From positions 310,001 through 374,000 of the forward strand of contig NZ_JAJOLP010000001.1 in the NCBI RefSeq assembly GCF_021129215.1: a stretch of 64,000 bases of DNA, read 5' to 3'. Numbering within the stretch: the stretch's first letter is position 1; every line of letters starts with the position of its first letter. A model generated the notes under the pieces. That model did not search any database, was not told where the DNA came from, and saw nothing but the letters and a program-made list of their open reading frames with translations. Positions 47,688 through 64,000 of this stretch are shown piece by piece. The stretch comes from Agromyces sp. S2-1-8 (GTDB lineage: Bacteria; Actinomycetota; Actinomycetes; Actinomycetales; Microbacteriaceae). Both the position numbers and the translations under genes were made by a program.

Positions 47688-49337
47688 TCAGAGTTCGACG
47701 CGCCCCACGAGGTTGACCTTCACGCCGAGCCGGTCGAGCATCGCGGCCTTCGCGACGAGGGCCTTGTCGGCGGTGTCGGCGTCGGGCGCGTAGACGAGCT
47801 GGGCGTGGTTGGCCTTGTGCCTGGCCATGAACTGGTCGCGGCTCACCTCGTGCAGCACGACGTGCGCGATCGGCCACTCGGGGTTCGTGGCGTTCTTGCG
47901 ACGGATCGTCTCCTCCTCGGGCAGCACGACGACGGTGGCACGCAGGAGGTCGGCCTGCAGCCGGCCGTCGGCGATGAACACGCGCGAGAGGACCACCTCG
48001 CCGGGCTTCGAGACGCCGTTGACCGTCGATCCGCCCGCCGGGAAGAACACCGGGTCCTGCCGCCACCCCTCGGCGTTCTGCCAGCCGCCGAGGTGCGAGC
48101 CGGGCACGGAGCCCGAGATCTCGTACACCCACACGAACTCGCCCGCGAACTCCTCGCCCCAGCGCACGTCGTGCAGCGTGTTGTCGGGGACCATGCCCAT
48201 CGCCCGCCAGATGCGGTCGGTGATGAGCGCGTCGACCGCGACGCCCTCGTCGGCCTCGTTGAAGTGCGGGAACGCGCGCCCCTCGTGCAGCACGCGCTCG
48301 CCGTCGCGCGACGTGACGGGCGGGCGCTCGGTCGAGTTGAGCAGGCCCTCGGCGAGGTCCGACGCCGGCACGAGGTCCTTCAGGCCCTGCTGGTACTGGA
48401 TGCCGACGGCGTCGAGCCCGAAGTCGTCGGCGATCCGCAGCGCGGCGATGTACATCTTGTACTGCCAGCGCAGCTGCGCCTCGGTGAGCTCGGTCGCCTC
48501 GTCGCTGCCGAGCTTGAACGTCATGCCCCGCTCGACGAGCCAGGCCCCGACCGCGTCGGCCTCGTCGTCGCCGACCGTCAGCATCTCGGCGTAGAGCGCG
48601 GACTGCGAGAGCCGCTCCTTGTAGATGCCGAGCCGGTTCAGCAGCTCGTCGTCGAAGATCGCGTTGTACATGCCCATGCAGCCCTCGTCGAAGACGCCGA
48701 TGATCGCCTTGTCGGCGAGCAGCTCGTCGGCGAGCGCACGCCCGAGCTCGACCTCGGCGGTGTCGGGCAGCTCTGGCAGGGGCCGCACGTGCGACGCGTC
48801 GTGCGTGATCGAGCCGGTCTCGACCCACTCGCGCAGCCCCTGCCGGAACCAGTCGTCGGTGAAGTCGACCGACCAGATCGTCGAGTACTCCCTGCCCATC
48901 TTGGTCAGACCGGCGTTCAGGCCGAGCAGGCCCACCAGGCCGGGCCAGTCGCCCGCGAAGTTCGCGACCGTGAGAATCGGCCCCCGGTGCGTGCGAAGGC
49001 CCGCGAGCACGTGGTGCGAGTACTGCCACACCGCTTCGGCGACGATCAGCGGCGCGTCGACCGGAATGGACTTGAACACCTCGAGCCCCATGCGCTGGCT
49101 CGAGATGAACCCGTGCCCGGTCGCGGGATCGACCTCGTTCGCGCGCACCACTCGCCAACCGAGCTCGCCGAGGGCCGCCGTGACGTCGGCCTCCATGGCG
49201 GCCTGCGTCGCCCAGCCCGCCGTGTTGGCCGACTCGCGCAGGTCGCCCGATGCGATCAGGTAGGCGGTGTTCGGCTCGGCCGCGGGGCGGGCCGCCGGCC
49301 GCGGGAGCGCGTACCGGGTCTGAGCGGTGTCGGTCAT
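47688..49337 (-). CDS. L-fucose/D-arabinose isomerase family protein (FucI-like)
   Basis: 549 residues (E. coli FucI about 591). Family segments: TAYLIASGDLRES at the N-terminus, LIVAEAVWQYSHHVLAGL, ILTVANFAGDWPGLVGLLGLN, GVFDEGCMGMYNAIFDDELL (~residue 220, candidate metal/catalytic acidic residues), YKERLSQSALYAEM, and near the C-terminus FMARHKANHAQLVYAPD (candidate catalytic His). FucI enzymes interconvert L-fucose/L-fuculose and D-arabinose/D-ribulose with Mn2+. Downstream of an FGGY kinase gene and near GH172/GH116/DUF4185 genes, the D-arabinose reaction is the best inference. ATG with a CAGGAGGC Shine-Dalgarno. No aldolase gene for an L-fucose route is nearby. Confidence 0.83.
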   Translation of the reverse strand: MTDTAQTRYALPRPAARPAAEPNTAYLIASGDLRESANTAGWATQAAMEADVTAALGELGWRVVRANEVDPATGHGFISSQRMGLEVFKSIPVDAPLIVAEAVWQYSHHVLAGLRTHRGPILTVANFAGDWPGLVGLLGLNAGLTKMGREYSTIWSVDFTDDWFRQGLREWVETGSITHDASHVRPLPELPDTAEVELGRALADELLADKAIIGVFDEGCMGMYNAIFDDELLNRLGIYKERLSQSALYAEMLTVGDDEADAVGAWLVERGMTFKLGSDEATELTEAQLRWQYKMYIAALRIADDFGLDAVGIQYQQGLKDLVPASDLAEGLLNSTERPPVTSRDGERVLHEGRAFPHFNEADEGVAVDALITDRIWRAMGMVPDNTLHDVRWGEEFAGEFVWVYEISGSVPGSHLGGWQNAEGWRQDPVFFPAGGSTVNGVSKPGEVVLSRVFIADGRLQADLLRATVVVLPEEETIRRKNATNPEWPIAHVVLHEVSRDQFMARHKANHAQLVYAPDADTADKALVAKAAMLDRLGVKVNLVGRVEL

Positions 49338-49386
49338 GGATGCCTCCTGGTGGGTGCTGGACGTCGGTGCTGGTGGTGGTTCGTGG

Positions 49387-50889
49387 TCATGCGCGGCCGC
49401 GCTGCTCGGCGGCGAGCTCGTGCACGACCTCTGCGCTCGCCGCATAGAGCCGCAGGTAGCGGTCGAAGAGCGCGTCGTAGGCGGCCCGCGCGGCGGGGTC
49501 GGGGCGGATCGTGCGGGCCGTCGGGTTCCAGTCGGCGATGACCGGGGGCGTCGCGCCGTCGCGCGAGGCGACCGCACCCGCGGCGAGGAAGGCCGCCCCG
49601 AAGCTCGCCCCGATCGTGATCTCGGGCACCTCCTGCACGAGCCCCGTGGCATCCGACACGATCTGCAGCCAGAGCTCGCCCTGCGTGCCGCCGCCGACCG
49701 CGACGATGCGGCGCAGGTCGGCGCCCGCGGAGCGCATCGTCTCGACGTTGTGCCGCACGCCGAGGGCGGTCGCCTCGAGTGCCGAGCGGTAGAGGTCGCC
49801 GCGACCGTGCTCGAGGGTGAGTCCGGCGATGACGCCGCGGGCGTCGGGGTCCTGGATGGGCGTGCGCTCCCCCGCGAAGTAGGGCAGGGTGACGAGGCCG
49901 CGTGCGCCGGGCCCCGACGCTGCCGCCTCGGCGAGCAGCTCGGGGTAGTCGGAGCCGGTGAGCTTCGCGAGCCACGCGGTCAGGGCGCCCGAGGTCGAGA
50001 GGCCGCCGGCGAGGTTGCGCGTTCCGGGGAAGGCGCCGGCCGTGGTCCACATCGAGGGGGTGCGCAGGGTCTCGTCGCCGGTGGCGATGAGGAACATCGT
50101 CGTGCCGTACATGAGCATCAGGTCGCCGACCCCATGGGCGCCGACGCTCACCGCCTCGGTCCAGGCGTCGATCGTGCCGACGATGACGGGCGTGCCCTCG
50201 GCGATCCCGGTCTCGGCGGCGGCCGACGCGGTCACGAGGCCCGCGAGGTCGCCGGCCCACGCGAGCGGGGGCGCCTCGACGGTCGCCGCGTAGCGCTGCC
50301 ACCACGGCTCGTGCCATGCCTCCGCCTCGACGTCGTAGAGGGGCGAGGTCTGGCTCGCCGACTGGTGGTCGAGCACGTAGGCGCCGGTCAGCCGCCGGGC
50401 GAGCCACGAGGCCGGCATGTAGAGGCGGCGGGCTCGCGCCCATGCTCGGGGCTCCTCGTCGGCGACCCAGGCGATCTTCGCGCCGGCGGCCTGGGAGGTG
50501 AGCTGCGAGCCGCCCACGCGCGCGATCTCGTCGGTGCCGAGCTCACGGTTCATCCGGTCGATCTGCGCGCCGGCCCTCGTGTCGACGCCGTAGAGGATCG
50601 CGGGCCGCACGGGCTCGTCGTCGTCGTCGCAGAGCAGCACGCACGGGCCCATGCCGCTCACGCCGACCCCGACGATCTCGGCCCCGGGCGCACCGCCCCG
50701 GAGTTCGCGGGCGAGCTCGACGAACTCGCGCCACCAGATGCGTCCGTCCATCTCGACCCACCCGGTGCGCGGGCGGTCGACCTCGTGCTGCCGGGTCGCC
50801 GTGGCGAGCAGGGTGCCGTCGCCCGCGACCAGCACGCCCTTGCTGCTGGACGTGCCGATGTCGACCCCCAGGGTGCATCGCACCGACAT
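49387..50889 (-). CDS. FGGY family carbohydrate kinase (candidate D-ribulokinase)
   Basis: 500 residues. N-terminal FGGY domain: TLGVDIGTSSSKGVLVAGDG (phosphate loop), GVGVSGMGPCVLL, ILYGVDTRAGAQIDRMN. The catalytic Asp is in VIVGTIDAWTEAVSVGAHG near residue 235. C-terminal domain: LPYFAGERTPIQDPDARG, IVAVGGGTQGELWLQIVSD. It phosphorylates a keto-sugar in the cytoplasm. Because it is followed by a FucI-type isomerase, D-ribulose (to D-ribulose 5-phosphate) is the likely substrate; L-fuculose or xylulose are alternatives. ATG with a GAGGAGGA Shine-Dalgarno. Its promoter contains the GAAATCGATTTC operator. Confidence 0.88.
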   Translation of the reverse strand: MSVRCTLGVDIGTSSSKGVLVAGDGTLLATATRQHEVDRPRTGWVEMDGRIWWREFVELARELRGGAPGAEIVGVGVSGMGPCVLLCDDDDEPVRPAILYGVDTRAGAQIDRMNRELGTDEIARVGGSQLTSQAAGAKIAWVADEEPRAWARARRLYMPASWLARRLTGAYVLDHQSASQTSPLYDVEAEAWHEPWWQRYAATVEAPPLAWAGDLAGLVTASAAAETGIAEGTPVIVGTIDAWTEAVSVGAHGVGDLMLMYGTTMFLIATGDETLRTPSMWTTAGAFPGTRNLAGGLSTSGALTAWLAKLTGSDYPELLAEAAASGPGARGLVTLPYFAGERTPIQDPDARGVIAGLTLEHGRGDLYRSALEATALGVRHNVETMRSAGADLRRIVAVGGGTQGELWLQIVSDATGLVQEVPEITIGASFGAAFLAAGAVASRDGATPPVIADWNPTARTIRPDPAARAAYDALFDRYLRLYAASAEVVHELAAEQRGRA

Positions 50890-50960
50890 GGCGCTCCTCC
50901 TCGATCACCGTCGTTCGCGTCGTCGCGGACGCTGCGTCCGCGCTCCGGCACTCTGCGGTC

Positions 50961-50989
50961 ACTCTATGCGAAATCGATTTCATGATCAA
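50961..50989 (-). promoter_or_regulatory. Promoter of the kinase-isomerase operon with LacI operator in the spacer
   Basis: Minus strand: TTGATC (50989 to 50984), 17-bp spacer, TAGAGT (50966 to 50961). The palindrome GAAATCGATTTC (50970-50981) fills the spacer. The stretch TGAAATCGATTTCGCATA is identical to the one in the transporter promoter at 63685-63713. Confidence 0.75.
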
Positions 50990-50990
50990 C

Positions 50991-51030
50991 CGCACGGGAT
51001 GCCTCGACCCGGCGCCGATGCCCGTGTGCG
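50991..51030 (-). terminator. Possible terminator of the LacI gene
   Basis: CGCAC-GGG (50991-50998) can pair with CCCGTGTGCG (51021-51030) with a 2-base bulge, starting 9 bases past the LacI stop. Long loop; weak evidence. Confidence 0.3.
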
Positions 51031-51038
51031 GGCCGCGC

Positions 51039-52022
51039 TCAGCCGGCTGCGCGCGCCGGCTGCAGCTCGCCGCGCAGCACGACGGTGCGGGCCGGCTGGT
51101 CGTCGCCGGCGATGCGCTCGAGCAGCATCTTGGCCGCCGTCACGCCCATGTGGCGGGCCGGCAGCCGCACGAGGGTGACCGCGCTCGGCGACAGCGTCGT
51201 GAACGGCAGCGAGCCGACGACCGCGACCCCGAGCTTCGGCGGCGTGAGCCCGTGCTCGGTGAGCACCTGGATCGCGCCGACGCCGAGCAGGTTGTTGCCC
51301 GCGACGACGGCGTCGGGCGGCTCGGGCAGGGCCAGCAGCTCCTCCATCACCTCGCGCCCGCCGTCGACGCGGAAGGTCGAGTAGCGCAGCAGTTCGTCGG
51401 GATCGACGTCGGGGAACTGGCGGGCGACCACCGCGCGCCATCCCTGTGCTCGTTCATAGGCCGTCTCGATGAGCTGCGGGCCCGTGATGCAGGCGATTCG
51501 CCGGTAGCCGGCTCGCACGAGGTGCTCGGTCGCCGCCTGGCCGGCCGTGCGGTTCGCCATCACCACGCCGTCGATGTCGTACCCGGTGCCCCGGTCGACC
51601 GCGACGACGGGGCGGCCCGCCGCCTGGATGTCGTCGAGGTTCGTCGTGTCGGAGGCGGCGGCGAGGATGACCCCGGCCATGTGCTCGGAGATCGCGATCT
51701 GGAGGTAGGTCGCCTCCTTCTCGAGCTGCGAGTCGGTGTTGCAGAGCACGACCGAGTAGCCCGCCTTCTGGGCGACGTCCTCGACGCCGCGGGCGAGCTC
51801 GGTGAAGTACGGGTTCTCGATGTCGGGGATCACGAGCGCGATCACCTCGGACTCCTGCTTGCGCAGGGTGCGCGCCGTGCGATTGGGCGTGAACTTCAGC
51901 TGCCTGGCGGCGTCGCGGACGGCGGCGACCTTCTCGTCGGAGACGGCCACGCCGTTGAACACGCGTGAGACCGTCGCGGGTGACACCCCCGCGAGCTTCG
52001 CCACTTCGTAGATCGTCGCCAT
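51039..52022 (-). CDS. LacI family regulator of the putative D-arabinan regulon
   Basis: 327 residues. Helix-turn-helix and hinge: TIYEVAKLAGVSPATVSRVF (residues 3-22) and PNRTARTLRKQESEVIALV (~45-62). The sugar-binding domain has IPDIENPYFTELARGVEDV, VILAAASDTTNL and AVVAGNNLLGVGAIQVL. Start at MATIYEVAK with an AGGGGC Shine-Dalgarno; an in-frame start 33 bases upstream gives a tail not typical of the family. The same operator occurs beside it (52081-52092), before the kinase (50970-50981) and before the transporter (63694-63705), so it is the likely common repressor. Inducer unknown, probably D-arabinose or an oligomer. Confidence 0.9.
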   Translation of the reverse strand: MATIYEVAKLAGVSPATVSRVFNGVAVSDEKVAAVRDAARQLKFTPNRTARTLRKQESEVIALVIPDIENPYFTELARGVEDVAQKAGYSVVLCNTDSQLEKEATYLQIAISEHMAGVILAAASDTTNLDDIQAAGRPVVAVDRGTGYDIDGVVMANRTAGQAATEHLVRAGYRRIACITGPQLIETAYERAQGWRAVVARQFPDVDPDELLRYSTFRVDGGREVMEELLALPEPPDAVVAGNNLLGVGAIQVLTEHGLTPPKLGVAVVGSLPFTTLSPSAVTLVRLPARHMGVTAAKMLLERIAGDDQPARTVVLRGELQPARAAG

Positions 52023-52048
52023 GCGCCCTGCCCCTGCGCCGGCCCGCG

Positions 52049-52094
52049 TTGACATGCCGGTGAGGCCACTTTACAGTGTTGAAATCGATTCCAA
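52049..52094 (+). promoter_or_regulatory. Promoter of the GH172 gene with LacI operator at the transcription start
   Basis: TTGACA (52049-52054), 17-bp spacer, TACAGT (52072-52077). The operator TTGAAATCGATTCCAA (52079-52094, core GAAATCGATTCC) begins 1 base after the -10 box and covers the expected start of transcription. It differs from the other two operators at one core position (C for T). Confidence 0.75.
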
Positions 52095-52142: not shown

Positions 52143-53276
52143 GTGAATGCCCCGCACCCGCCGAGTCCGGACCTCTCGTCGATCGCCGCGATCCGGCCGC
52201 TGCAGACGCGGTCGATCTCGCCCGAGAACTTCGACGGGTCGAAGGGCGGCGGCGCCCGCGCGACCGAGGGCACCGGGGCCTCGTGCGCACGCGACCTCGG
52301 GCCGGGGTGGAAGATCTCGCCGAGCGTCGACATCACGGCCGGCGAGACCTTCGACCTCGCCGCGATCGACGGACCCGGCCGCATCACCCACGTCTGGATC
52401 ACGACGCATACCGACAACTGGCGCACGCTGATCCTGCGCGCCTACTGGGACGGCGCCGACGAGCCCGCCGTCGAGGTGCCCTACGGCGACTTCTTCTGCA
52501 ACGGCTGGGGCGTGTTCGCGCAGGTGAACTCGCAGGTCATCGCGGCGAACCCGCACGGCGGCTTCAACTCGTACTGGCCGATGCCGTTCAAGCGGGGCGC
52601 CCGGCTCACGATCGAGAACACCTCGGTCGTCGACGTGCGCGTCTACTACCAGGTCACCTACGAGATCGGCGGCGACTACGCGAGCGACGGCTACTTCCAC
52701 GCCCAGTGGCGCCGCTCGAACCCGCTCGAGGAGCTCGTGCCGCACACCATCCTCGAGGGCATCGAGGGGCAGGGCCAGTACGTCGGCACCTACCTCGCCT
52801 GGGGCGTGAACTCGAACGGCTGGTGGGGCGAGGGCGAGATCAAGTTCTACCTCGACGACGACACCGACCACCCGACGATCTGCGGCACCGGCACCGAGGA
52901 CTACTTCGGCGGTGCGTGGAACTTCGACATCCCGGGGCGGGGCTACACGGCCTACTCGACCCCGTACCTCGGCATGCCCCAGGTGATCCGGCCCGACGGG
53001 CTCTACGTCTCGCAGCAGCGCTTCGGCATGTACCGGTGGCATCTGCTCGACCCGATCCACTTCACGACCGGCCTGCCGAAGGTCGACATCCAGGCCCTCG
53101 GTTGGCGCAGCGGATGGCGCTACCTTCCCCTGCGCGACGACATCGCCTCGACCGCGATGTTCTACCTCGACCGGCCCACCGCCCGCCGACCGAAGACGCC
53201 GACGGCCGACGACCTGGAGGTGCACTTGGGCTCGGCCCCTGTGCCCGACCTGGGCGCGACGCCGCCGCGCACCTGA
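52143..53276 (+). CDS. GH172 (DUF2961) glycoside hydrolase, candidate exo-D-arabinofuranosidase
   Basis: 377 residues, no signal peptide, so cytoplasmic. It starts with RSISPENFDGSKGGGARATEG and WKISPSVDITAGETF, typical of DUF2961. The first jelly roll has GRITHVWITTHTDNWRTLILRAYWDG (split ~75-100), ARLTIENTSVVDVRVYYQV lies near 150, and the conserved CGTGTEDYFGGAWNF near residue 245 contains a candidate catalytic Glu. DUF2961 is now family GH172, whose known members cleave alpha-D-arabinofuranosides or difructose dianhydride. The operator in its promoter ties it to the kinase-isomerase operon and the transporter. GTG start with GAGGAA about 11 bases upstream. Confidence 0.87.
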   Translation: MNAPHPPSPDLSSIAAIRPLQTRSISPENFDGSKGGGARATEGTGASCARDLGPGWKISPSVDITAGETFDLAAIDGPGRITHVWITTHTDNWRTLILRAYWDGADEPAVEVPYGDFFCNGWGVFAQVNSQVIAANPHGGFNSYWPMPFKRGARLTIENTSVVDVRVYYQVTYEIGGDYASDGYFHAQWRRSNPLEELVPHTILEGIEGQGQYVGTYLAWGVNSNGWWGEGEIKFYLDDDTDHPTICGTGTEDYFGGAWNFDIPGRGYTAYSTPYLGMPQVIRPDGLYVSQQRFGMYRWHLLDPIHFTTGLPKVDIQALGWRSGWRYLPLRDDIASTAMFYLDRPTARRPKTPTADDLEVHLGSAPVPDLGATPPRT

Positions 53277-53288
53277 CCGCCGGCATGA

Positions 53289-53320: not shown

Positions 53321-53710
53321 TCAGGCGGGCAGCTCGACCCACTGCACGAGCTGCCAGACGAGGCCGTTCGGGTCGGCGAACTGGCAGTAGCGCTCGCCCC
53401 ATGGCTCCGTCTCGGGTGCCGTCACGACGCGGGCGCCGGCCCCCGCGATGCGCTCGAACTCGGCGTCGAGGTCGTCGACCACGAAGACGAGCAGCAGCCC
53501 CTGCCCCGCCGAGCCGGCGATCTCGCTCGGCTTGAAGGTGGCGAGGCCCGTGGCGAGGAAGATCAGGTTCGTGTTCGAGTCGGCGTGGCGGAGCGACACG
53601 AACCCGTCGGCCGCCATGGCCTCCTCGTAGCCGAAGCAGGTCTTGGCGAAGTTCGCCGAGGCGTCGACGTCGGCGACGTTCAGCGAGACGGCGGTCTGGG
53701 TGATGTTCAT
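53321..53710 (-). CDS. VOC superfamily (glyoxalase/bleomycin-resistance-like) protein
   Basis: 129 residues, one VOC domain made of two beta-alpha-beta-beta-beta units: ITQTAVSLNVADVDASANFAK at the start (split), GLLLVFVVDDLDAEFERIAGAG in the middle, and CQFADPNGLVWQLVQWVE at the end. The last contains the Glu/Gln-type metal-site position as Gln. Function within the VOC group is unknown. ATG with GGGAGAA Shine-Dalgarno. Divergent from a TetR gene with two repeats between, so probably its target. Confidence 0.83.
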   Translation of the reverse strand: MNITQTAVSLNVADVDASANFAKTCFGYEEAMAADGFVSLRHADSNTNLIFLATGLATFKPSEIAGSAGQGLLLVFVVDDLDAEFERIAGAGARVVTAPETEPWGERYCQFADPNGLVWQLVQWVELPA

Positions 53711-53733
53711 CGGTTCTCCCGTTCGGTAAACCC

Positions 53734-53765
53734 TGTACAACGTACAGTACCGTCTACAACGTACA
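53734..53765. promoter_or_regulatory. Two direct copies of a 13-bp palindrome (TetR operator candidates)
   Basis: TGTACAACGTACA (53734-53746, perfect palindrome with 3-bp centre) and TCTACAACGTACA (53753-53765) are 19 bp apart. They lie between the VOC start (53710) and TetR start (53799). TACAAT (53762-53767) may be the TetR -10 box. Confidence 0.65.
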
Positions 53766-53798
53766 ATGTTGCGACGGTATTCCGAGGGAGGTCCCGCG

Positions 53799-54521
53799 AT
53801 GCCCAGGCCCCTGATCGACCTGCTCTGGCGCGACCGCCCCGGCGCGACCGCCGGCGGCAGCCGCGGCCCCAGGGCCCGCTACTCCACGGGCGACGTCGTG
53901 TCCCGCGCGATCGCCCTCGCCGACGAAGGCGGCCTCGCCGCGGTCACCGTACGGGCGCTCGCCCAGTCGCTCGAGCTGACGGCGATGTCGGTGTACACCC
54001 ACGTCAACAGCCGCGACGACCTGCTCGTGCTGATGGCCGACCACGCGCACGGGCAGATGACGACGACACCGTTCGGTCGATCGACGTGGCGCACCCGGGT
54101 GCGCCGCCTCGCCGAGGACAACCTCGCGCTGCTGCGCGACCACCCCTGGCTGCTCGGCATCGACGATCCGCGGACCGCCCTCGGCCCCGGCACCATCGCG
54201 AAGTACGACCACGAGCTGCACGCCTTCGACGGCACGTCGATCAGCGACATCCGACGTGATGCGGCGCTGACGTTCGTGCTCGACTTCGTGCGGTCCACGG
54301 CCGCCAGGACGGTGATGACACCTGCGACCGGAGACTTCGGCGAGCTCTGGGAGCAGTCGGTCGATCGCCTGGCCGGCTACCTGGGCGACGACTTCGCACT
54401 CGCGCAGCGGGTCGGTCGCGCGGCCGGTGAGGCGATGGGCGGCCCGCACGACGCCGAGCGCGCGTGGCAGTTCGGGCTGACCCGCGTGATCGCCGGCCTG
54501 GGCGACCTCGACTCGCGCTAG
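53799..54521 (+). CDS. TetR family transcriptional regulator
   Basis: 240 residues. Helix-turn-helix about residues 45-85 (AVTVRALAQSLELTAMSVY, THVNSRDDLLVLM) and a TetR_C-type ligand domain (HPWLLGIDDPRTALGPG). The ATG at 53799 is chosen for the AGGGAGG Shine-Dalgarno; an ATG 33 bases upstream overlaps the promoter. It is divergent from the VOC gene and likely autoregulated. It overlaps the convergent serine hydrolase stop by 4 bases. Confidence 0.87.
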   Translation: MPRPLIDLLWRDRPGATAGGSRGPRARYSTGDVVSRAIALADEGGLAAVTVRALAQSLELTAMSVYTHVNSRDDLLVLMADHAHGQMTTTPFGRSTWRTRVRRLAEDNLALLRDHPWLLGIDDPRTALGPGTIAKYDHELHAFDGTSISDIRRDAALTFVLDFVRSTAARTVMTPATGDFGELWEQSVDRLAGYLGDDFALAQRVGRAAGEAMGGPHDAERAWQFGLTRVIAGLGDLDSR

Positions 54522-55888: not shown

Positions 55889-55901
55889 CACAGGCCCGTG
55901 C

Positions 55902-56159
55902 TCACCGGGCGAGGCCGACGGCATTCGCGGCGTCGGCTTCGAAGTACTCCGTCGTCGCGGCCCGTCCCGCATACGCCTCGAAGAACTCGCGCACCGCGTC
56001 GGCCGAGTCGTGCGCGATGACGTTCACCGCCCTGGTTCCGTCGGTGCTCGCGATCGCGAGCACCCACTTCGCCCCCTTGGGCAGCCGCCCGTGGGCCTTC
56101 TTCAGTGCGCCCCAGAACAGGTCGCCGTCGTCGACGGTCGAGATGGCCATGATGTGCAT
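55902..56159 (-). CDS. Small conserved-type hypothetical protein (85 residues)
   Basis: 85 residues from MHIMAISTVDDGDLFWGAL, with a ferredoxin-like pattern: a beta strand, helix (ALKKAHGRLPKG), beta strand KWVLAIASTDGTRAVNVIA, and helix SADAVREFFEAYAG. Function unknown; the pattern recalls dimeric alpha-beta barrel proteins. ATG with a GAAAGG Shine-Dalgarno 6 bases upstream; the longer open frame upstream is not supported. It heads a two-gene operon with the serine hydrolase. Confidence 0.65.
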   Translation of the reverse strand: MHIMAISTVDDGDLFWGALKKAHGRLPKGAKWVLAIASTDGTRAVNVIAHDSADAVREFFEAYAGRAATTEYFEADAANAVGLAR

Positions 56160-56263
56160 GTCGCGCCTTTCGTTTCCGAATGCCAGAACGCTACGTAGCC
56201 TTTCCATCTGCGTCAACGCCAGATCCCCGAAAACACGCCAATCGTTGCGTGGTACTGTCGTCG

Positions 56264-56278
56264 AACGCAACGTGCGTT
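56264..56278 (+). promoter_or_regulatory. Palindrome upstream of the HTH protein gene
   Basis: AACGCA and TGCGTT around ACG, followed by more GCGTTGC repeats to 56284. It lies between a TACTGT box (56253-56258) and the ATG at 56314, a position fitting autoregulation. Confidence 0.5.
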
Positions 56279-56313
56279 GCGTTGCACTCCGTGAACGACG
56301 ATGGGGACGCGGC

Positions 56314-57225
56314 ATGACCGGTGGCAGGCTCACCCTGCACGAGCGACGATCGATCGCCGAAGGAATGGCCGACGGTCTCGGCTACGCCGAGATCGGCCGG
56401 CGCCTCGGCCGCCCGACGTCGACGATCAGCCGCGAGGTGGCTCGCAACGGCAACGGCCGGTACTCGGCCGGCGCGGCGCACGAGGCGGCAGGGCATCGTG
56501 TGCGCCGCCCCGCCGCTGCACCGGAGCCGCCGACCGAGACCCGCGCGTTCGTCGAGGAGTTCGCGGGCCTGCTGTCGGCCACCGGGATGCCGCGGATGGC
56601 CTCGCGCGTGTTCACCGCCCTCCTGCTCTCCGAGGCCGGAAGCCTCACCGCCGCCGAGCTCGTGCATGGACTGCAGGTCAGCCCGGCGGCGGTGTCGAAG
56701 GCCGTCGGCTACCTCGAGGGACTCGGCCTGCTCCGGCGCGAGGCCGATCGCCGCAGCCGTCGGGAGCGGTACGTCATCGACGACGACGTGTGGTTGCGGG
56801 CGCTGCGCACCGACTCGTCGGCGCACGCCGACGTGGCGACCGGTGCGGCGCGCGGCGCCGCCATCTTCGGGGCGGAGAGCCCCGCCGGCGTGCGACTCGG
56901 CCTCATGGGGCGGTTCTTCGGCGAGCTCACGGAGCAGATCGACGGAATCGACCTGGACGATCCGAAGGCGGGCGACGCGATGACCGTGCTCGCGGCGCTG
57001 GTCCACGCCGATCGGGCGCTCACGGTCGACGAGCTCTCGGGCGCGCTCGGCTGGACGCCGACACGTGCGGCCTCGGCGCTGACGGAGCTCGAGCGACGTC
57101 CCAACCTCGCCGATCCGCTCCTCGTCGGCGTCCAGGGCGAGCGGTACGCCGTCACCGCGCGGCCGGATCGGCTCTCGCAGGCCCAGCGCGCCGCACTGCG
57201 GCCGGCGAGCGGTGCCGCAGGCTAG
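56314..57225 (+). CDS. Transcriptional regulator: IS30-type HTH fused to MarR/GbsR-like domain
   Basis: 303 residues. Residues 5-55 (LTLHERRSIAEGMADGLGYA, then EIGRRLGRPTSTISREVARN) match the HTH_38 domain at the N-terminus of IS30 transposases, but the DDE catalytic domain is absent. Residues ~85-165 form a GbsR/MarR-like winged helix (AAELVHGLQVSPAAVSKAVGYLEGLGLL, split). A third winged-helix-like segment lies at ~225-290 (ALTVDELSGALGWTPTRAAS). It is therefore a DNA-binding regulator with an unusual domain make-up. ATG start with GGGGA upstream. It overlaps the convergent GH116 stop by 4 bases. Confidence 0.75.
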   Translation: MTGGRLTLHERRSIAEGMADGLGYAEIGRRLGRPTSTISREVARNGNGRYSAGAAHEAAGHRVRRPAAAPEPPTETRAFVEEFAGLLSATGMPRMASRVFTALLLSEAGSLTAAELVHGLQVSPAAVSKAVGYLEGLGLLRREADRRSRRERYVIDDDVWLRALRTDSSAHADVATGAARGAAIFGAESPAGVRLGLMGRFFGELTEQIDGIDLDDPKAGDAMTVLAALVHADRALTVDELSGALGWTPTRAASALTELERRPNLADPLLVGVQGERYAVTARPDRLSQAQRAALRPASGAAG

Positions 57226-59708
57226 GCCCGCACCACCTCGAGACCGAACGCGCCCTCGGCGATCTCGACGGCCACGTCGTCATCGGTCACGACGACCGTG
57301 CCGTACCCCGTCGAGGCGACCCACGGCCAACGACCGTTCGCACCGACGTGCAGCGATCCCGTCGCCTCGTCGACGCGCACGCCCGATCGGGCCTGAAGCA
57401 GCGTCCAGCCGGCCATCGCCCTCGCGTAGTGGTCGCCGCACTCGATCTCGTTGTACGGGTTGCGTCGCGAGCCGTCGTGCCGGTTCCACAGTCCGTCGAG
57501 CACGGCCTGGCCCGCGTCGTCCAGGCCCTCGAAGAGGCAGTGCGCGGCGACCTGCGCCTCGATGCCCGTCCAGACCTCGTCGGCGTACCGCGTCGGGACC
57601 TCGGGTCGGCCGCCGTCGGGCCACGAGCACATGAGCAGCCCGACATCGTCGGCCGTGTCGGCGTAGACCCGGTAGGGGTGGGTGAAGTCGGCGAAGCCGT
57701 GCCGCAGGTTCGAGCCGACGACGTGGCGCAGCGCGCTGCGCACGTGCTCGGCGGGCAGGATGTGCCCGAGTCCGAGCTGGTGCGCCCACCACTGCCCGAT
57801 GACCTGGTCGCTCAGGATGCCGGTCAGCCATTGGAAGTCGGTCGGGTCGCCCTCGTCGAGGCGCTGGATGTAGTGCGTGCCGTCGAAGATCGCCTCGTCG
57901 TAGCCGCGCGAGCCCGACTCGAAGCGCGCTCGCGCCTCGGCCGCCGCATCGTCGTCGCCGGCGAGCAGCGCGAGCTCCTCGTACGCGCGCAGCGCCGCGA
58001 GCCACAGCGTGCCCATGAAGGGATTGACCCCAGCCAGGTCGATGTCGTGCGTCGACGGCTGGATGCCGTGCAGCACGCCGTCGCCGTCGGCGTCCCACTT
58101 CTCGGCGATGTGGCGATAGAGCCGCTGGAGCGACGGCCAGCGCCGCTCGAGCCACTCGGCTCCCGCGCCCCGCTGCACGTCGCGGAGCGACTTGAGGATC
58201 GTCGCGAGCATGCCGTCGAGCGCCGGCTCCTCGGGCCCGCCGATCATCTCGTGGGTCATCTGCGGCAGGTACGTCGGTACCCGAAGGCGGTGCGGGATCG
58301 CGCCGTTCGGCGCCTGCATGACGTCGAACTCGGTGTCGCGCATGTCGCGCTCGAGCTCGGGCCAGAGCCCGGCGAGCGCCGCCTCGTACTGCCAGACGTG
58401 CGTGCAGTTGAGCGGGCACGACCCGCCGAACACCCCCGACCACATCCAGGTCGAGGCGCCGAGCGAACCCTCGTATCCGTAGAAGCGGCCGTCGGCGCCG
58501 ATGAAGCAGGTCGGGCTCCGCACGTAGGCGGCCTGGGCGGCGAGGTAGTCGGCCTCGCGCGGCGCGAGGCTCGAGGTCGTGAGGGTCTCGGTCCAGCGCG
58601 AGGTGCGGGCGACGAGGTCGTCCCACCGCTCCTCGACCTCGGCCTGCACGTCGAGCGCATCGCGGTATCGCTGCCCGTAGCCGTTGCCGAGGTAGAACCG
58701 CGACGCGCCCGCCTCGGGGTGCGGCCGGCCGAACTGCTCGATGTCGACGAAGCGGTTCGGGAAATGCCAGGACATCGAGAACCGGATCGTGCGCGACTGC
58801 CCGGGCTCGAGCCAGTACGGCACCCCGACGACGCCGAGCCACGAGCGCCCCGGCGCACTCGCGCCCGAGCCGCCGCGCGGCGCGTTCAACTGCGGGTCGC
58901 CGACGGTCGGCGCGACCTCGAGACGCGAGCGCCCGTCGTTGAGCGCGCGCGAGTCGAGGAAGGCGCGCAGGTGCTCGACGCCGGTGCACCGCGCGAGCAC
59001 GGCCGCGGACGGGTCGTCGGCGGCGAGCACCAGCTGCCCGGCGAGCTGGTCGGACTCGTCGATCGACGGGTTGTCCATCACCACCCGCGACCAGCCCCGC
59101 CCGCGGAGCAGTCGGTTGACGTTGCCGCCGAGCCCCGGGGTGTGCTCGCCGATCGGGGTGATGCCGTCCCACCCGGCGGCGTTCAGCAGCGAGCCCGCGA
59201 GCGTGCCGTGCACCGGGAACTCGCCCGTGTTCGTGAGGGTGAACGAGAACAGCCCGGTCGGCATGCCGCTCGTCTCGACGTCGCCCGGCACCATGGGGTT
59301 CAGCGCCCGCATGGTGACGGCGACGGGATGCCTCGGATCGGAGAGCCCGACCTCGGCGATCGGATACGTGCCGCTGAACCGGGCCGACGCGAAGGTGCCG
59401 AACCGGTCGGCCGCCGCCGACATCCACTCGGGCACGACCGCGTCCGTCGTCAGCGACGCCCCCGGGTCGTCGACGGGGTGCCCCTGCACCATCGAGACGA
59501 CGTCGAGCGGCGGCTCGATCTGCGTGACGCGCAGCCAGAACCCGGTGCCGGGCAGGGCGCCCACGTGGTTCGGCATGCCGTGCAGCTGCCATTGGCGGAG
59601 CGACCCGTCGGCGCCCACGGCGAATCCGCCCGTGCCGATGCCGCCGATCGGCATCGCGAGGGCGGGGACTGCGGTGTGCGGGAGCTCCTGCCGGAGGATG
59701 TCGGTCAT
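57222..59708 (-). CDS. GH116 family glycoside hydrolase, candidate exo-D-arabinofuranosidase
   Basis: 828 residues, no signal peptide. The N-terminal beta domain has ALAMPIGGIGTGGFAVGADGSL at its start (split), a GBA2/DUF608 hallmark. The alpha/alpha barrel has GGSCPLNCTHVWQYEAALAGL near residue 430, whose Glu matches the GH116 nucleophile, and STHDIDLAGVNPFMGTLWLAA near residue 555 with candidate acid/base Asp. GH116 includes beta-glucosidases and glucosylceramidases, but also enzymes reported to cleave D-arabinofuranosides. The DUF4185, GH172 and isomerase/kinase genes around favour the latter. ATG overlaps the preceding stop (ATGA), Shine-Dalgarno AGGAGAGG. Last gene of the transporter operon. 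Confidence 0.85.
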   Translation of the reverse strand: MTDILRQELPHTAVPALAMPIGGIGTGGFAVGADGSLRQWQLHGMPNHVGALPGTGFWLRVTQIEPPLDVVSMVQGHPVDDPGASLTTDAVVPEWMSAAADRFGTFASARFSGTYPIAEVGLSDPRHPVAVTMRALNPMVPGDVETSGMPTGLFSFTLTNTGEFPVHGTLAGSLLNAAGWDGITPIGEHTPGLGGNVNRLLRGRGWSRVVMDNPSIDESDQLAGQLVLAADDPSAAVLARCTGVEHLRAFLDSRALNDGRSRLEVAPTVGDPQLNAPRGGSGASAPGRSWLGVVGVPYWLEPGQSRTIRFSMSWHFPNRFVDIEQFGRPHPEAGASRFYLGNGYGQRYRDALDVQAEVEERWDDLVARTSRWTETLTTSSLAPREADYLAAQAAYVRSPTCFIGADGRFYGYEGSLGASTWMWSGVFGGSCPLNCTHVWQYEAALAGLWPELERDMRDTEFDVMQAPNGAIPHRLRVPTYLPQMTHEMIGGPEEPALDGMLATILKSLRDVQRGAGAEWLERRWPSLQRLYRHIAEKWDADGDGVLHGIQPSTHDIDLAGVNPFMGTLWLAALRAYEELALLAGDDDAAAEARARFESGSRGYDEAIFDGTHYIQRLDEGDPTDFQWLTGILSDQVIGQWWAHQLGLGHILPAEHVRSALRHVVGSNLRHGFADFTHPYRVYADTADDVGLLMCSWPDGGRPEVPTRYADEVWTGIEAQVAAHCLFEGLDDAGQAVLDGLWNRHDGSRRNPYNEIECGDHYARAMAGWTLLQARSGVRVDEATGSLHVGANGRWPWVASTGYGTVVVTDDDVAVEIAEGAFGLEVVRA

Positions 59709-60424
59709 GCCTCTCCTTGCGTGACGGTGATGGGGCTGCGGCGCAGCGGGACGAGCGGCGGCAGCGCGACGCCGACCGCTGCCGCGGTCGGCCAGGCGCA
59801 ACCGACGGCGAGCACGACGAACACCGGCGCGGCGATCGCGAGCAGGACGGTCAGCCAGGTGAGTCCGAGCCAGACGACGGCGGCGGCGGCGGCGACCGCG
59901 GACACGGGGCCGAGCGGCCGGCGCACGACGGCGATGAACGCCATCGCGACGATGCTGCGCAGGCGGACGTCGGCCCGCACGACGCCGACCGGGATCGCGA
60001 CCGCCGCGACGAGCGCGGCGACGACGGCCAGCGCGGTGCCGGCGACGGCGAGCACCTGGAAGGCCACGGATCCGGAGGCCTCGGCGACGACGGCGACGAG
60101 CGCGCTCCACGCCGCCAGCATGCAGGGGGCGACCGCGAAGACCGCGACCACGAGCAGGCGCCGCCCGAAGCCGGGCCGCTCGCCGCCGAGTTCGAAGAGC
60201 TCGGCGCCGAGCCGGTCGACCGCCCAGAGCAGCCCGGGCGCCGCGAGTGCGGCGACGACGATCCAGGTGATCGGCGACGCGGGGCCGAGCACCCGACCCG
60301 CTGCGGCGTAGACGGCGACGACGGCGACGCCGAGCACGGCGAGCGCGGGCAGCGATCGCCACGCCGCAGCCGGCAGCCGGCGCAGCACGGGGTCGACGGC
60401 CGCGCCCGGCTCCACGGCGGTCAT
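59705..60424 (-). CDS. Six-helix membrane protein of unknown function (YesL/DUF624-like at most)
   Basis: 239 residues with about six membrane helices (near 30-50, 55-75, 95-120, 125-150, 170-190 and 195-215) and short basic loops (RRLLVVAVF, VRRPLGPVS). ATGA overlaps at both ends couple it to the permease and GH116 genes, so it belongs to the sugar operon. Similar small membrane proteins (YesL, DUF624) accompany CUT1 transporters for plant or wall polysaccharides, but I cannot confirm the family from motifs. Confidence 0.72.
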   Translation of the reverse strand: MTAVEPGAAVDPVLRRLPAAAWRSLPALAVLGVAVVAVYAAAGRVLGPASPITWIVVAALAAPGLLWAVDRLGAELFELGGERPGFGRRLLVVAVFAVAPCMLAAWSALVAVVAEASGSVAFQVLAVAGTALAVVAALVAAVAIPVGVVRADVRLRSIVAMAFIAVVRRPLGPVSAVAAAAAVVWLGLTWLTVLLAIAAPVFVVLAVGCAWPTAAAVGVALPPLVPLRRSPITVTQGEA

Positions 60425-61326
60425 CCCTTCAACCCGGTCGACGCGACGGACTCGACGATCTGCCGCTGGAACGCGAGGAACACGATGAGCAGCGGCAGCA
60501 CGACCATCGTGATCGCCGCGAAGACGACGACGGCCGGTGCCGCCCCGAAGCCGTTCTGCAGCGTGACGAGCCCGAGCGGCAGGGTCATGTTCTCGGGGCT
60601 CGAGAGGAAGATGAGCGGTCCGAAGTACCCGTTCCACGACGCCTCGAACCCGAGGATGGCGAGCGCGGCGATCGCCGGCGCCGACAGCGGCACGAGCATG
60701 CGGAAGAGGATCCACAGGTGCCCGGCCCCGTCGATGCGGGCGGCCTCGTCGAGCTCGCGCGGGATCGTCTTGAAGTACTGCGAGAGGAAGAAGATCTGGA
60801 ACACGTTGATGAGGGCGGGCAGCCACAGCGAGGCCAGCGTGTCGACCAGCCCGACCTGCCGCATCATGATGAAGATCGGGATGATCACGAGCTGCGCCGG
60901 CACCATGAGCGCCGACAGCATGACGACGAGCAGCAGGCGGCTGCCCCGGAAGTCGATGCGGGCGAACGCGTAGGCGGCGAGGATCGAGAAGATCAGCGCT
61001 CCCGCCGTCGAGACGGCCGCGAGCAGCAGCGAGTTGCCGAACTGCTGGAAGAACGGCATGTAGTCGAGCACGTCGGCGAAGTTCTCGAACGTGAACGGGA
61101 TCGGCAGCCAGCTCGGCGGGCTCGCGAAGGCGAACTCGGGCACCGTGAGGCTCTGCACGATCAGCCACACGAGCGGGGCGATCATGACGATGCCGAACAC
61201 GACGAGCACGATGTCGACGGCGACGCCGCCCGGGGTGCGTCGCCGCGACTTGCGGCGGCCGGTCTTCTCGAGGGTGGCGAGCAGGTCGTCGCTCGGCATC
61301 GGCCGGGCCTGCGGAATGGTCGTCAT
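60421..61326 (-). CDS. CUT1 ABC transporter permease (MalG-type)
   Basis: 301 residues with six membrane segments. The EAA loop is ELDEAARIDGAGHLWILFRMLVP near residue 190 (split), and the C-terminus RQIVESVASTGLKG is typical. ATG overlaps the upstream permease stop as ATGA. The ~30-residue basic N-terminal tail precedes TM1. Second permease of the putative arabino-oligosaccharide importer. Confidence 0.92.
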   Translation of the reverse strand: MTTIPQARPMPSDDLLATLEKTGRRKSRRRTPGGVAVDIVLVVFGIVMIAPLVWLIVQSLTVPEFAFASPPSWLPIPFTFENFADVLDYMPFFQQFGNSLLLAAVSTAGALIFSILAAYAFARIDFRGSRLLLVVMLSALMVPAQLVIIPIFIMMRQVGLVDTLASLWLPALINVFQIFFLSQYFKTIPRELDEAARIDGAGHLWILFRMLVPLSAPAIAALAILGFEASWNGYFGPLIFLSSPENMTLPLGLVTLQNGFGAAPAVVVFAAITMVVLPLLIVFLAFQRQIVESVASTGLKG

Positions 61327-62243
61327 GATTCGTGCACCCACCTTCTCCGGCCGATGAACTGCAGGAGCGTCACACCCATGATGATCACGAAGACGAGGAG
61401 CGCGACGGCGGCCGCGTAGCCCATGTCGAACGCCTGGAAGCCCTTCTCGTACAGGTACATGATGATCGTCGTGGTCGACCCCTGCGGCCCGCCCTTGGTG
61501 ATGATCTGGATCGGGTCGAAGATCTGGAACGCCCCGATGAACGTGATGATCGTCGCGAAGAACAGGGTCGGCGACATGAGCGGCAGCGTGACGTTCCAGA
61601 AGATCTGCCGGCCCGTCGCACCGTCGGTGCGCGCCGCCTCGACGAGTTCGGACGGCACCGTCTGCAGGCCGGCCAGCATGATGATGAAGGTGAACCCGAC
61701 CGTGTGCCAGAGGTCGATGACGATGATCGACGGCAGGGCCCACGCGGGGTCGGCGAGGAAGTTCGGCAGCTCGATGCCGAGCATCGCGGCGTACTGTCCG
61801 ACGTATCCGAACGTCGGGTCGAGCACGTACTTCCACAGCAGCGAGACCGCCGCCCACGAGATCAGGAACGGGAAGAAGATCGCGACGCGGGCGAAGTAGC
61901 CGATGGACCTGCTGATGAGGTTGTTCACGGCGAGCGCCAGCAGCAGGCCCAGCACGAGGTGCGTCACGATCGACGCGAACGCGAAGACGAAGGTGTTCCA
62001 CAGCACCTGCGGAAGCTCGGGGTCGGTGAACAGCTGCTCGAAGTTCGCGAGGCCCACGAACTCGGGCGGCGTCAGCAGGTCCCACTCGAGGAAGGCGAGC
62101 GCGATCGCGAAGACGAACGGCCCCGCGACGAAGACGAGGAAGAGGAGGACGGCGGGGCTGACGAACAGCCAGCCCGCCGCCTCGGCGCGGCGCCGCTGGA
62201 GCAGTGCTCCGGGGCGCCGCGCCGTGATCGTGTCGCTACTCAC
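61323..62243 (-). CDS. CUT1 ABC transporter permease (MalF-type)
   Basis: 306 residues with six membrane segments. WLFVSPAVLLFLVFVAGPFVF opens TM1 (split), and the EAA loop is VEAARTDGATGRQIFWNVTLP near residue 205. ITKGGPQGSTTTIIMYLYEKGF is the usual periplasmic motif. GTG start overlaps the binding-protein stop by 8 bases, with GGAG about 11 bases upstream. Confidence 0.91.
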   Translation of the reverse strand: MSSDTITARRPGALLQRRRAEAAGWLFVSPAVLLFLVFVAGPFVFAIALAFLEWDLLTPPEFVGLANFEQLFTDPELPQVLWNTFVFAFASIVTHLVLGLLLALAVNNLISRSIGYFARVAIFFPFLISWAAVSLLWKYVLDPTFGYVGQYAAMLGIELPNFLADPAWALPSIIVIDLWHTVGFTFIIMLAGLQTVPSELVEAARTDGATGRQIFWNVTLPLMSPTLFFATIITFIGAFQIFDPIQIITKGGPQGSTTTIIMYLYEKGFQAFDMGYAAAVALLVFVIIMGVTLLQFIGRRRWVHES

Positions 62244-63555
62244 TGACCAGCGACTCCAGCTTGTCCTGCGCGGCGTCGAGCGTCGGCTGCGCCTCGCCCT
62301 GGCCCGCGACGATCGTGCCCCAGGCCTCCTCGATGACCTTCTGCGCCTCGGCGCCCTGGTCGATCGACGGGATGGGCGTCGCCCAGCCCATCGCCTCGCT
62401 CAGCCGCACGGTGCCCTCGGGGGCGTTGCCGGTGAACGCCTCGGAGTTCGCGACCGACTCGCGCGCCGGCACGATCGTGCCGCCGATCGTCGCGAAGTAC
62501 TCGCCGGCCTCCTTCGACATGAGGAACTTGATGAAGGTCCAGGCGGCCTGCTTGTTCTCGCTGTTCTTCGTGATGTTCCAGGCATCCCAGCCGACCGGCG
62601 AGCCGTTCTGGGTGTTGGTGGGCCAGTTCACGACGACCGTCTGGTCGACCATGTCCATGTCGCGGACGCCGAGCACCGGCCACCGCCCGCCGTTGAGGGT
62701 GGCGAGCTTGCCCTGCTTGAACGCCGTGTTGCCGTCGAACTGCCCGCCGGGCTTGGGCGCGAGGCCCATCTCGACGAGGCTGCGGGCGAACTCGGCCGAT
62801 TCGACGGCCTCAGGGGTGTTGTAGGTCGGCTCGCTCCAGTCCTGGTTGAAGGTGCTCGCGCTGTTGGTCGTGAGCCACGGCATGACGTCGACGAAGTAGC
62901 CCGAGCCGGCACCGGTGAGGTACGCGCCCGTCTTCTCCTTGATCTGCTTGCCGGCCGCGACGAACTCGTCCCAGGTCCAGTTGCCGTCTTCGGGGATCGG
63001 CACCCCGGCCTTCTCGAACACCGACTTGTTGAGGTACATCGCCATGGTGTTGAAGCCGCCGGGGATGAAGACGGTCTCGCCGTCGGGTCCGGAGGCGTAC
63101 TCCTCGTTGAACTTGACGAGGTTCGGGCTGAGGTCGGCCCAGTAGTCGTCGACGACCTCCTGGTCCTGCTCGATGTACGGCGCGAGGTCGGTGAGGATGC
63201 CCTTCGAGGCGAACAGCCGCTGCCCCTCGGTCGCCACCTGGATGATGTCGATCTTCTGCCCGCCGGCGAGCCGCGTCGCGACCGTCGTGGAGAACGTCGC
63301 CCAGTTGCCGCTCGGAATGCCGACGGCCTTGAGCTTGATGTCGGGGTACTCCTTGTTGAACTCGGCGAACAGGGCGTTGAAGGCCTTCTGCTGGTCGGCG
63401 TCGCCCATGTAGACGAAGCTCAGGTCGCCGCTGTCGGGGCTGCCCTCCGCGCCGCCGCCGCCTCCGCCGCCTCCGGCGGTGCAGCCCGTCATGAGCAGTG
63501 CCGCGGCCGCGATGACCGCGGCGGCCTTGGCGAGACCCTTCATTCTCTTGTGCAT
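62236..63555 (-). CDS. ABC transporter substrate-binding lipoprotein (putative arabino-oligosaccharide)
   Basis: 439 residues. The lipoprotein signal ends in AALLMTGCTAGG (lipobox Cys near residue 25), followed by a Gly-rich linker and a family 1 solute-binding fold (FVYMGDADQQKAFNALFAEF, YLNKSVFEKAGVPIPEDGNW, AWTFIKFLMSKEAGEYFA). ATG with a GAGGAGGG Shine-Dalgarno. It heads the operon binding protein - two permeases - membrane protein - GH116, under a promoter with the GAAATCGATTTC operator. The ligand is inferred from neighbours only. Confidence 0.89.
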   Translation of the reverse strand: MHKRMKGLAKAAAVIAAAALLMTGCTAGGGGGGGGAEGSPDSGDLSFVYMGDADQQKAFNALFAEFNKEYPDIKLKAVGIPSGNWATFSTTVATRLAGGQKIDIIQVATEGQRLFASKGILTDLAPYIEQDQEVVDDYWADLSPNLVKFNEEYASGPDGETVFIPGGFNTMAMYLNKSVFEKAGVPIPEDGNWTWDEFVAAGKQIKEKTGAYLTGAGSGYFVDVMPWLTTNSASTFNQDWSEPTYNTPEAVESAEFARSLVEMGLAPKPGGQFDGNTAFKQGKLATLNGGRWPVLGVRDMDMVDQTVVVNWPTNTQNGSPVGWDAWNITKNSENKQAAWTFIKFLMSKEAGEYFATIGGTIVPARESVANSEAFTGNAPEGTVRLSEAMGWATPIPSIDQGAEAQKVIEEAWGTIVAGQGEAQPTLDAAQDKLESLVSE

Positions 63556-63684
63556 TCGTCCCTCCTCAGGAACTCGACTCGTCGATGAGTCGATGCTGTG
63601 GCCGGGTCAGGAACCCCGGTTCGGTCGGGCTTCGGCCGTGGGCGCCGGCAGGTTCTCGGTTCGCCGTTGACCTCACCTGCGGCC

Positions 63685-63713
63685 AGAGTATGCGAAATCG
63701 ATTTCAAGCGCAA
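63685..63713 (-). promoter_or_regulatory. Promoter of the transporter-GH116 operon with LacI operator in the spacer
   Basis: Minus strand: TTGCGC (63713 to 63708), 17-bp spacer, TACTCT (63690 to 63685). GAAATCGATTTC (63694-63705) lies in the spacer at the same place as in the kinase promoter, and 18 bases across the site are identical. Leader about 120 bases to the ATG. Confidence 0.75.
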
Positions 63714-63770
63714 CGATCGGATGTTTCGAGCCGATGCGGTGGGCGATGACGACGCCCGTCCGGGTCTCGA

Positions 63771-64000
63771 TCACTCCGCCTTCTCGAGCTCGGCCGAGAA
63801 CCAGTACACGTTGTACGGCCCCCAGAGCGAGAGCGCGAAGTAGACCGTGCGCCCGCCGTCGCCGACGTAGCGCGGGTTCAGGTAGGGCGCATACAACCCC
63901 GGATACTCGTCGCCCGGCACGAGCTCGACCGGGTCTCCCCACGGCCCCCACGGCGTCGCGCCCTCGCGCAGGTACGCGTTGCCCGCATCCGAGTAGCTCA
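63771..64000 (-). CDS. DUF4185 (GH183-type) protein, C-terminal 76 residues only
   Basis: Cut by the right edge; only the C-terminal 76 codons are present. They read AYLREGATPWGPWGDPVELV, ALYAPY-type segment YPGLYAPYLNPRYV, and end FALSLWGPYNVYWFSAELEKAE (each part shorter in the protein family signature), which matches the end of DUF4185 proteins. DUF4185 is now GH183, endo-D-arabinanases acting on mycobacterial arabinan. If correct, this is probably the extracellular first step of the pathway, but its signal peptide and catalytic residues are outside the window. Confidence 0.7.
   Translation of the reverse strand, partial: SYSDAGNAYLREGATPWGPWGDPVELVPGDEYPGLYAPYLNPRYVGDGGRTVYFALSLWGPYNVYWFSAELEKAE

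Follow-up and report, generated by a model that had tools for sequence, protein, structure and literature searches.

The stretch of DNA analysed here (the window, 64,000 nucleotides) comprises positions 310001-374000 of contig NZ_JAJOLP010000001.1 in the 4.10 Mb genome of Agromyces sp. S2-1-8. Towards its right-hand end it carries a locus, spanning positions 47688-64940, in which genes for a FucI-fold isomerase, an FGGY kinase, a LacI-family regulator, a CUT1 transporter and enzymes of glycoside hydrolase (GH) families GH172, GH116 and GH183 lie together; the locus exceeds the end of the window, and everything beyond position 64000 was taken from the adjoining extended sequence (L006). We interpret this locus as a D-arabinan utilisation regulon under a single LacI repressor, related to the locus of Microbacterium arabinogalactanolyticum, and put the probability of this interpretation at about 80%. 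An earlier, sequence-only reading had listed these genes together with a palindrome shared by three promoters. Both proved real: every family was confirmed, as were the exact palindrome GAAATCGATTTC and its one-mismatch form GAAATCGATTCC, and a fourth site was found upstream of the GH183 gene.

The genes fall into four transcription units, each with a predicted operator (Table 1). Because the reading frames from the binding protein to GH116 (63555 to 57222) overlap by a few bases, the transporter, a membrane protein and GH116 are assigned to one operon; the kinase and isomerase (50889 to 47688) form another unit, lacI and the rightward, divergent GH172 gene a third, and GH183 the fourth. The clustering of GH183, GH172, GH116, a sugar ATP-binding cassette (ABC) transporter, isomerase and kinase gives the locus a gene content of the type described by Shimokawa (2023, PMC10509167). 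No Pfam match was obtained for the membrane protein at E 0.001 or 0.01, and none of the ten locus proteins scored above a family cut-off of NCBIfam among the families listed (25 of 43 for one protein).

Table 1. Features of the proposed D-arabinan regulon, in window positions (aa, amino acids)
Feature	Position	Strand	Remarks
FucI-fold aldose isomerase, 549 aa	47688..49337	-	divergent clade annotated 'fucose isomerase'; proposed D-arabinose to D-ribulose
FGGY sugar kinase, xylulokinase-like, proposed D-ribulokinase	49387..50889	-	PF00370/PF02782
Predicted operator GAAATCGATTTC, 81 bp upstream of kinase	50970..50981		in TTGATC/TAGAGT spacer (by eye)
LacI-family regulator, proposed repressor of regulon	51039..52055	-	PF00356, PF00532/PF13377
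Predicted operator GAAATCGATTCC, 1 mismatch	52081..52092		between divergent lacI and GH172; immediately 3' of TTGACA-17-TACAGT (by eye)
GH172, proposed exo-alpha-D-arabinofuranosidase	52143..53276	+	PF11175
GH116, 828 aa, proposed exo-beta-D-arabinofuranosidase, separate clade	57222..59708	-	PF12215/PF04685
Hydrophobic membrane protein, 239 aa	59705..60424	-	GH116 start overlaps by 4 bases; 51% orthologue in L150
CUT1 ABC permease 2	60421..61326	-	PF00528
CUT1 ABC permease 1	61323..62243	-	PF00528
CUT1 solute-binding lipoprotein	62236..63555	-	PF01547/PF13416; lipobox LLMTGC in translation
Predicted operator GAAATCGATTTC of transporter/GH116 operon promoter	63694..63705		in TTGCGC/TACTCT spacer (by eye)
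GH183 (DUF4185), proposed surface lipoprotein endo-D-arabinanase	63771..64940 (L006:3771-4940); 3' part 63771..64000 in window	-	PF13810, 278 bits
Fourth predicted operator GAAATCGATTTC, 48 bp upstream of GH183 ATG	64988-64999 (L006:4988-4999)		

Hydrolases and sugar-converting enzymes

The assignment of the DUF4185 gene to GH183, made earlier from its end alone, holds for the full gene, which matches PF13810 with 278 bits and keeps the catalytic residues of EndoMA1 (8hhv, 169 bits; D33, D51, R198 and E243 conserved). The protein begins with a signal peptide whose final stretch, ALCAC, resembles a lipobox, and an end of the same type is seen by eye in eleven relatives (68-89%), so it is probably a surface lipoprotein. 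The GH172 protein is a close orthologue of ExoMA1 of M. arabinogalactanolyticum (8ic8), to which it aligns ungapped over 368 residues with 811.8 bits, and it conserves Asn253, which in ExoMA1 stands in place of the fructofuranosidase Gly and is given in the main text of PMC10509167 as a block to fructofuranosides. No signal peptide was seen by eye in the translations of GH172 and GH116.

The possibility, raised in the sequence-only reading, that the GH116 protein would side with glucosidases is not borne out, as it scores 347 bits against the D-arabinofuranosidase ExoMA2 (8ic6) and at most 77 against any other GH116 protein in the PDB; its affinity to subfamily 4 was judged by this score gap between ExoMA2 and the glucosidases. 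E409, H433, R470 and D551 (numbered on the 824-aa aligned stretch; add 4 for the full protein) are invariant across an alignment of 23 sequences, of which six come from ExoMA2-type loci, such that the protein retains the nucleophile, the acid/base and the counterpart of the His446/Arg483 pair of ExoMA2, a pair described in the main text of PMC10509167 as the distinction from glucosidase. A role as glucosylceramidase was rejected on the scores and on this conserved His/Arg pair. We also rejected a loss of the nucleophile, which a phmmer alignment placing Met opposite Glu431 had seemed to indicate: the Glu of YEGS is ungapped in homologues, and a 9-residue insertion follows it.

The protein is not, however, the orthologue of ExoMA2. 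Mapping of 26 named loci and 20 Agromyces stretches together with the window revealed two types of GH116. The type present in the window recurs at 92% identity in L150 (A. italicus) and L151 (A. cavernae), 70% in L158, and 55% in a Mycobacterium metagenome-assembled genome (MAG; L032), with a further 50% match in L060, and the five aligned sequences of this type carry the 9-residue insertion after the nucleophile; the ExoMA2 type of other loci is 32-36% identical to the window protein and often lies between kinase and isomerase. In the Mycobacterium MAG (L032:10001-13563), a GH172 gene adjoins the GH116 gene, and the locus holds no LacI orthologue or operator.

The isomerase has the fold of the FucI family but is only 15-18% identical to FucI and to the Bacillus pallidus D-arabinose isomerase (1fui, 3a9r), and its best PDB sequence match has a profile E of 0.17. 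His511, aligned to the FucI metal-ligand His by a low-score profile match, is invariant in 24 sequences, as are Glu361 and Asp390, which by FucI motifs are putative metal ligands. An orthologue at G025:C1:154376-156007 contains one internal TGA. The kinase best matches the xylulokinase model TIGR01312, at 288 bits and below the cut-off of 380.

The palindrome and its link to the LacI regulator

Across the whole genome GAAATCGATTTC occurs at three exact places and at four with at most one mismatch, all of them in this locus, and the reversed control returned 0. Among 138 symmetrised sites, T makes up 65% and G 1% at the base preceding the core G, which lies outside the searched letters, and this preference gives the extended consensus TGAAATCGATTTCA. 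LacI-family sugar repressors have palindromic operators with a central CG, a pattern that we take the core AATCGATT to fit. The regulator of the locus combines a helix-turn-helix (HTH) with a sugar-binding domain, the layout of RbsR, CytR and PurR, and reaches no equivalog cut-off; its best NCBIfam neighbours, RbsR and CytR, are matched far below theirs.

Site and regulator were compared in three sets, for which P values are indicative because related genomes are not independent. The first consisted of 60 Agromyces genomes (LacI orthologues at E<=1e-60, isomerase orthologues at E<=1e-30), with a LacI orthologue in 17, an exact site in 18 and both in 15. Of the 36 exact sites, 33 lie within 20 kb of lacI and three are single sites elsewhere, one each in G001, G020 and G026, and the two genomes that have LacI and no exact site (G009 and G041) carry one-mismatch sites upstream of lacI or the kinase. 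For 299 genomes of the family (LacI at E<=1e-90, up to 7 candidates scored per genome) the corresponding counts were 26, 40 and 19 (Fisher 1e-13, uncorrected for kinship). The third set was the best 80 of 590 named GH172 loci, in which LacI was counted at 40% identity or more over 250 residues and expected site counts came from Markov resampling (10 per locus). All 30 loci with LacI have a site at one mismatch or fewer, amounting to 83 sites against 0.4 expected; among the 50 loci lacking LacI, 13 have a site, 14 sites in total, where 3.4 would be expected. This phylogenetic footprinting very strongly supports a link between palindrome, LacI protein and target promoters, and with it the earlier proposal of a regulon defined by one palindrome.

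The position of the sites within promoters, with all -35 and -10 elements assigned by eye, follows a pattern that extends from Microbacteriaceae to Streptomyces. Upstream of the kinase the operator fills the 17-bp spacer of a TTGnnn promoter in Agromyces (TTGATCAT-operator-GCATAGAGT in the window), Microbacterium helvum (TTGATCAT-operator-GTCTACAGT), Sanguibacter (TTGCATCT-operator-GTCTAATCT) and Streptomyces (TTGACGCT-operator-TGCAAGCGT, with a poorer -10). Upstream of GH172 it directly follows TTGACA-17-TACAGT in the window and in several, not all, relatives, and no clear -35/-10 was seen by eye upstream of GH183 in the Agromyces sequence itself. At either placement, in the spacer or directly after the -10, a bound repressor would obstruct RNA polymerase. 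Streptomyces loci such as L036, L040, L042 and L046 have a variant, GAAATGGATTTC, after TTGACA beside GH172, plus an exact site before the kinase. Four Kribbella loci (L028, L030, L033 and L034) have GCAATCGATTTC just upstream of the GH172 start (10001) and no LacI orthologue in the locus; these sites are possibly real.

A proposed D-arabinan regulon and its alternatives

Homology and residue conservation support the route that the sequence-only reading had outlined. A membrane-anchored GH183 lipoprotein, whose catalytic residues are conserved, would cut mycobacterial-type D-arabinan outside the cell, and the CUT1 transporter would import the oligosaccharides. In the cytoplasm, GH172 would remove alpha-linked and GH116 beta-linked D-arabinofuranose, as their homology and kept specificity residues suggest, after which the isomerase would yield D-ribulose and the FGGY kinase D-ribulose 5-phosphate. 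The LacI repressor is predicted to bind the TGAAATCGATTTCA-type palindrome inside or directly after the -35/-10 elements and thereby to control all four units, with release presumably brought about by D-arabinose or one of its first products, for example D-ribulose.

A D-arabinan locus of the Bacteroidota, PUL42 of Dysgonomonas gadei (PUL, polysaccharide utilisation locus), reportedly relies on SusCD-type transport. That PUL is the Bacteroidota equivalent (Al-Jourani 2023, PMC10115798), unlike the Agromyces locus in transport and control as far as the portions of that paper drawn on here describe them. Closer at hand, the main text of Shimokawa (2023, PMC10509167) presents the D-arabinan PUL of M. 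arabinogalactanolyticum (MIAR_33170-33320) with a proposed route to D-ribulose 5-phosphate, and reports by quantitative PCR that its GH183 and GH116 genes are induced more than 10-fold, and GH172 3.5- and 6.0-fold, by D-arabinose and mycobacterial wall extract. The earlier suggestion of a possibly undescribed regulated locus leading from the polymer into central metabolism was thus mistaken, since cluster, induction and scheme are in PMC10509167 and the Bacteroidota counterpart in PMC10115798; the pathway from D-arabinan polymer to pentose phosphate is already known in kind. The induction of the related Microbacterium locus by D-arabinose in turn supports the regulon interpretation here. The two loci have in common GH183, GH172, GH116, a three-gene ABC transporter, isomerase and kinase, and the Agromyces locus differs in its GH116 clade with the 9-residue insertion and in the extra membrane protein. 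What seems new, as far as we searched, is operator-based control of D-arabinan use: the main text of PMC10509167 contains none of the strings LacI, regulat, transcription and repressor (figures and supplements being outside this count), the operator string was not found in the open-licence PMC papers searched, and no description of a regulator or operator for D-arabinan or D-arabinose use was found among those papers, later GH183/GH172 work included, although a mention in full texts, supplements, figures or subscription papers is possible.

Several observations weigh against the regulon interpretation. The locus copy is the only GH183 gene found in the Agromyces genome, compared with four in M. 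arabinogalactanolyticum, and by its position beside the binding protein it resembles MIAR_33320, which was insoluble and whose activity was not shown according to the main text of PMC10509167. The gene set of the 'complete' regulon claimed earlier is therefore present, but its completeness is uncertain, both for this reason and because the isomerase specificity is putative. Within the family, 7 of 26 genomes with LacI have no exact site, and an exact site occurs in 21 of 273 genomes without a scored LacI, partly small genomes. The distribution in Agromyces is also uneven. Although isomerase orthologues, in 16 of 60 genomes, always accompany LacI, lacI and isomerase occur without GH172 in five of these 16 (G002, G015, G018, G041 and G048). 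A full L-fucose-type oxidative gene set stands beside the lacI core in G002 and G048, and G015 has partial counterparts. In G002 the set comprises a ribose-type ABC transporter, FucU/RbsD, an aldo/keto reductase, a lactonase-type amidohydrolase, an enolase-family dehydratase, an SDR and FAA hydrolases, with orthologues at 88-98% in G048 and, for those within its examined stretch, 92-100% in G003. Finally, a search of 11 genomes for the kinase found no orthologue in G002, G003, G005, G048 and G009, the last of which also lacks the isomerase, and only a 32% match in G015.

These gene contexts bear most directly on the idea that the lacI, isomerase and kinase core serves L-fucose, alone or along with D-arabinose, and that D-arabinan hydrolases were added to it, with the isomerase and the inducer belonging to L-fucose chemistry. 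L-fucose and D-arabinose have the same configuration at the reacting carbons. We nevertheless consider this idea unlikely. In all nine Agromyces genomes whose LacI is at least 74% identical (that of the window included), GH172 is also present; G003 (L159) holds the oxidative set in one locus with GH172 and GH183, with operators upstream of GH183 and FucU; and no class II (fuculose-phosphate type) aldolase was found among the scanned locus proteins, the rest of the genome not having been searched. Enzymes of this kind can, moreover, also serve D-arabinose: the portions of Watanabe (2019, PMC6336799) drawn on here describe a dehydrogenase that takes either D-arabinose or L-fucose as substrate, as well as a route by which pentose is turned into pyruvate and glycolate, though the D-arabinose and L-fucose clusters there are each induced by their own sugar only. 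Similar dehydrogenase and hydrolase genes to those of its non-phosphorylating Route III lie beside the lacI core in G002, G003 and G048, and not in the window locus.

The hydrolases might instead weaken other cells or handle wall debris, leaving metabolism secondary. A GH183 that looks like a surface lipoprotein would place cleavage at the cell, and local remodelling of the Gordonia wall, giving access to cell contents, is offered as an alternative role in the portions of PMC10115798 drawn on here. A single operator set that joins endo-enzyme, importer, cytoplasmic exo-enzymes, isomerase and kinase has, by contrast, the layout of a nutritional system, which makes such a role quite improbable. 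Agromyces is not known to have a D-arabinan of its own. Still less probable is it that the palindrome belongs to another regulator, such as the TetR or HTH protein encoded inside the cluster, and that lacI is a bystander, given that every one of the 30 loci with LacI has a site and that TetR/HTH orthologues are absent from the examined stretches L150 and L151, each of which has four sites.

Alongside the regulon interpretation, the comparison suggests how such loci are assembled. GH172 occurs in 12 of 60 Agromyces genomes, one of which (G022) has no LacI and an in-frame stop, and GH183 is found by Pfam in 14, with 10 strong matches. Other neighbours of the core include an SDR and a DHDPS-family gene in G018 and a rhamnosidase and a BNR protein in G041. 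In G048 a kinase remnant, its first ~40 codons, persists behind an operator (L161:14084-14203), with the rest of the gene gone. Trees built from 38 LacI rows and 30 isomerase rows, which have some long branches and arbitrary roots, split Agromyces: some of its members lie further from the window than Microbacterium, Sanguibacter and Promicromonospora do, which suggests horizontal movement. The lacI/operator core is probably a conserved, mobile module to which varying hydrolases, transporters and sugar outlets are attached. Given its mixed gene context and the dual-substrate dehydrogenase of Watanabe (2019), the module may be one for D-arabinose with two outlets, or one for L-fucose in some hosts.

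We lean slightly towards a broader proposal, namely that an undescribed LacI repressor and its promoter-embedded 14-bp operator constitute a portable D-arabinose/D-arabinan module across Microbacteriaceae, Sanguibacter, Promicromonospora and Streptomyces, in which the exchangeable parts are mycobacterial-wall hydrolases (GH116 of either clade, and GH183 in secreted or lipoprotein form), importers (a ribose-type ABC transporter or one of two CUT1 types) and outlets (the kinase or, where this is lost, an oxidative route). If so, the ability to live on the mycobacterial wall could be predicted from the operator and the genes around it. As far as we searched, this is the first specific proposal of how cells turn on the use of D-arabinan. 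Searching with the operator could reveal further D-arabinan genes, among them those of uncharacterised GH183 and GH116 clades, which would serve as tools for work on the arabinogalactan and lipoarabinomannan of mycobacteria; the operator could also be developed into a D-arabinose sensor. The locus also raises the question of which sugar, D-arabinose, L-fucose or both, is recognised by isomerase and repressor.

Genes within and beside the locus

Between GH172 and GH116 lies an insert (53321-57225) with glyoxalase, TetR, serine beta-lactamase-fold and HTH genes. Membership of these genes in the regulon was rejected, as they have no upstream operator and are missing from L150 and L151. In those two loci the GH172 and GH116 genes are less than 90 bp apart. 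A glyoxalase/TetR pair is also near GH172 in L152, L154 and L155. Adjoining the isomerase is a gene without an operator for a 1273-aa GH31 protein with an NPCBM domain (43776-47597), which has an 87% counterpart in L151. A second sugar cluster lies beyond the regulon (L006:7802-17815) and encodes a binding protein, two permeases, a GH3 enzyme and another LacI regulator.

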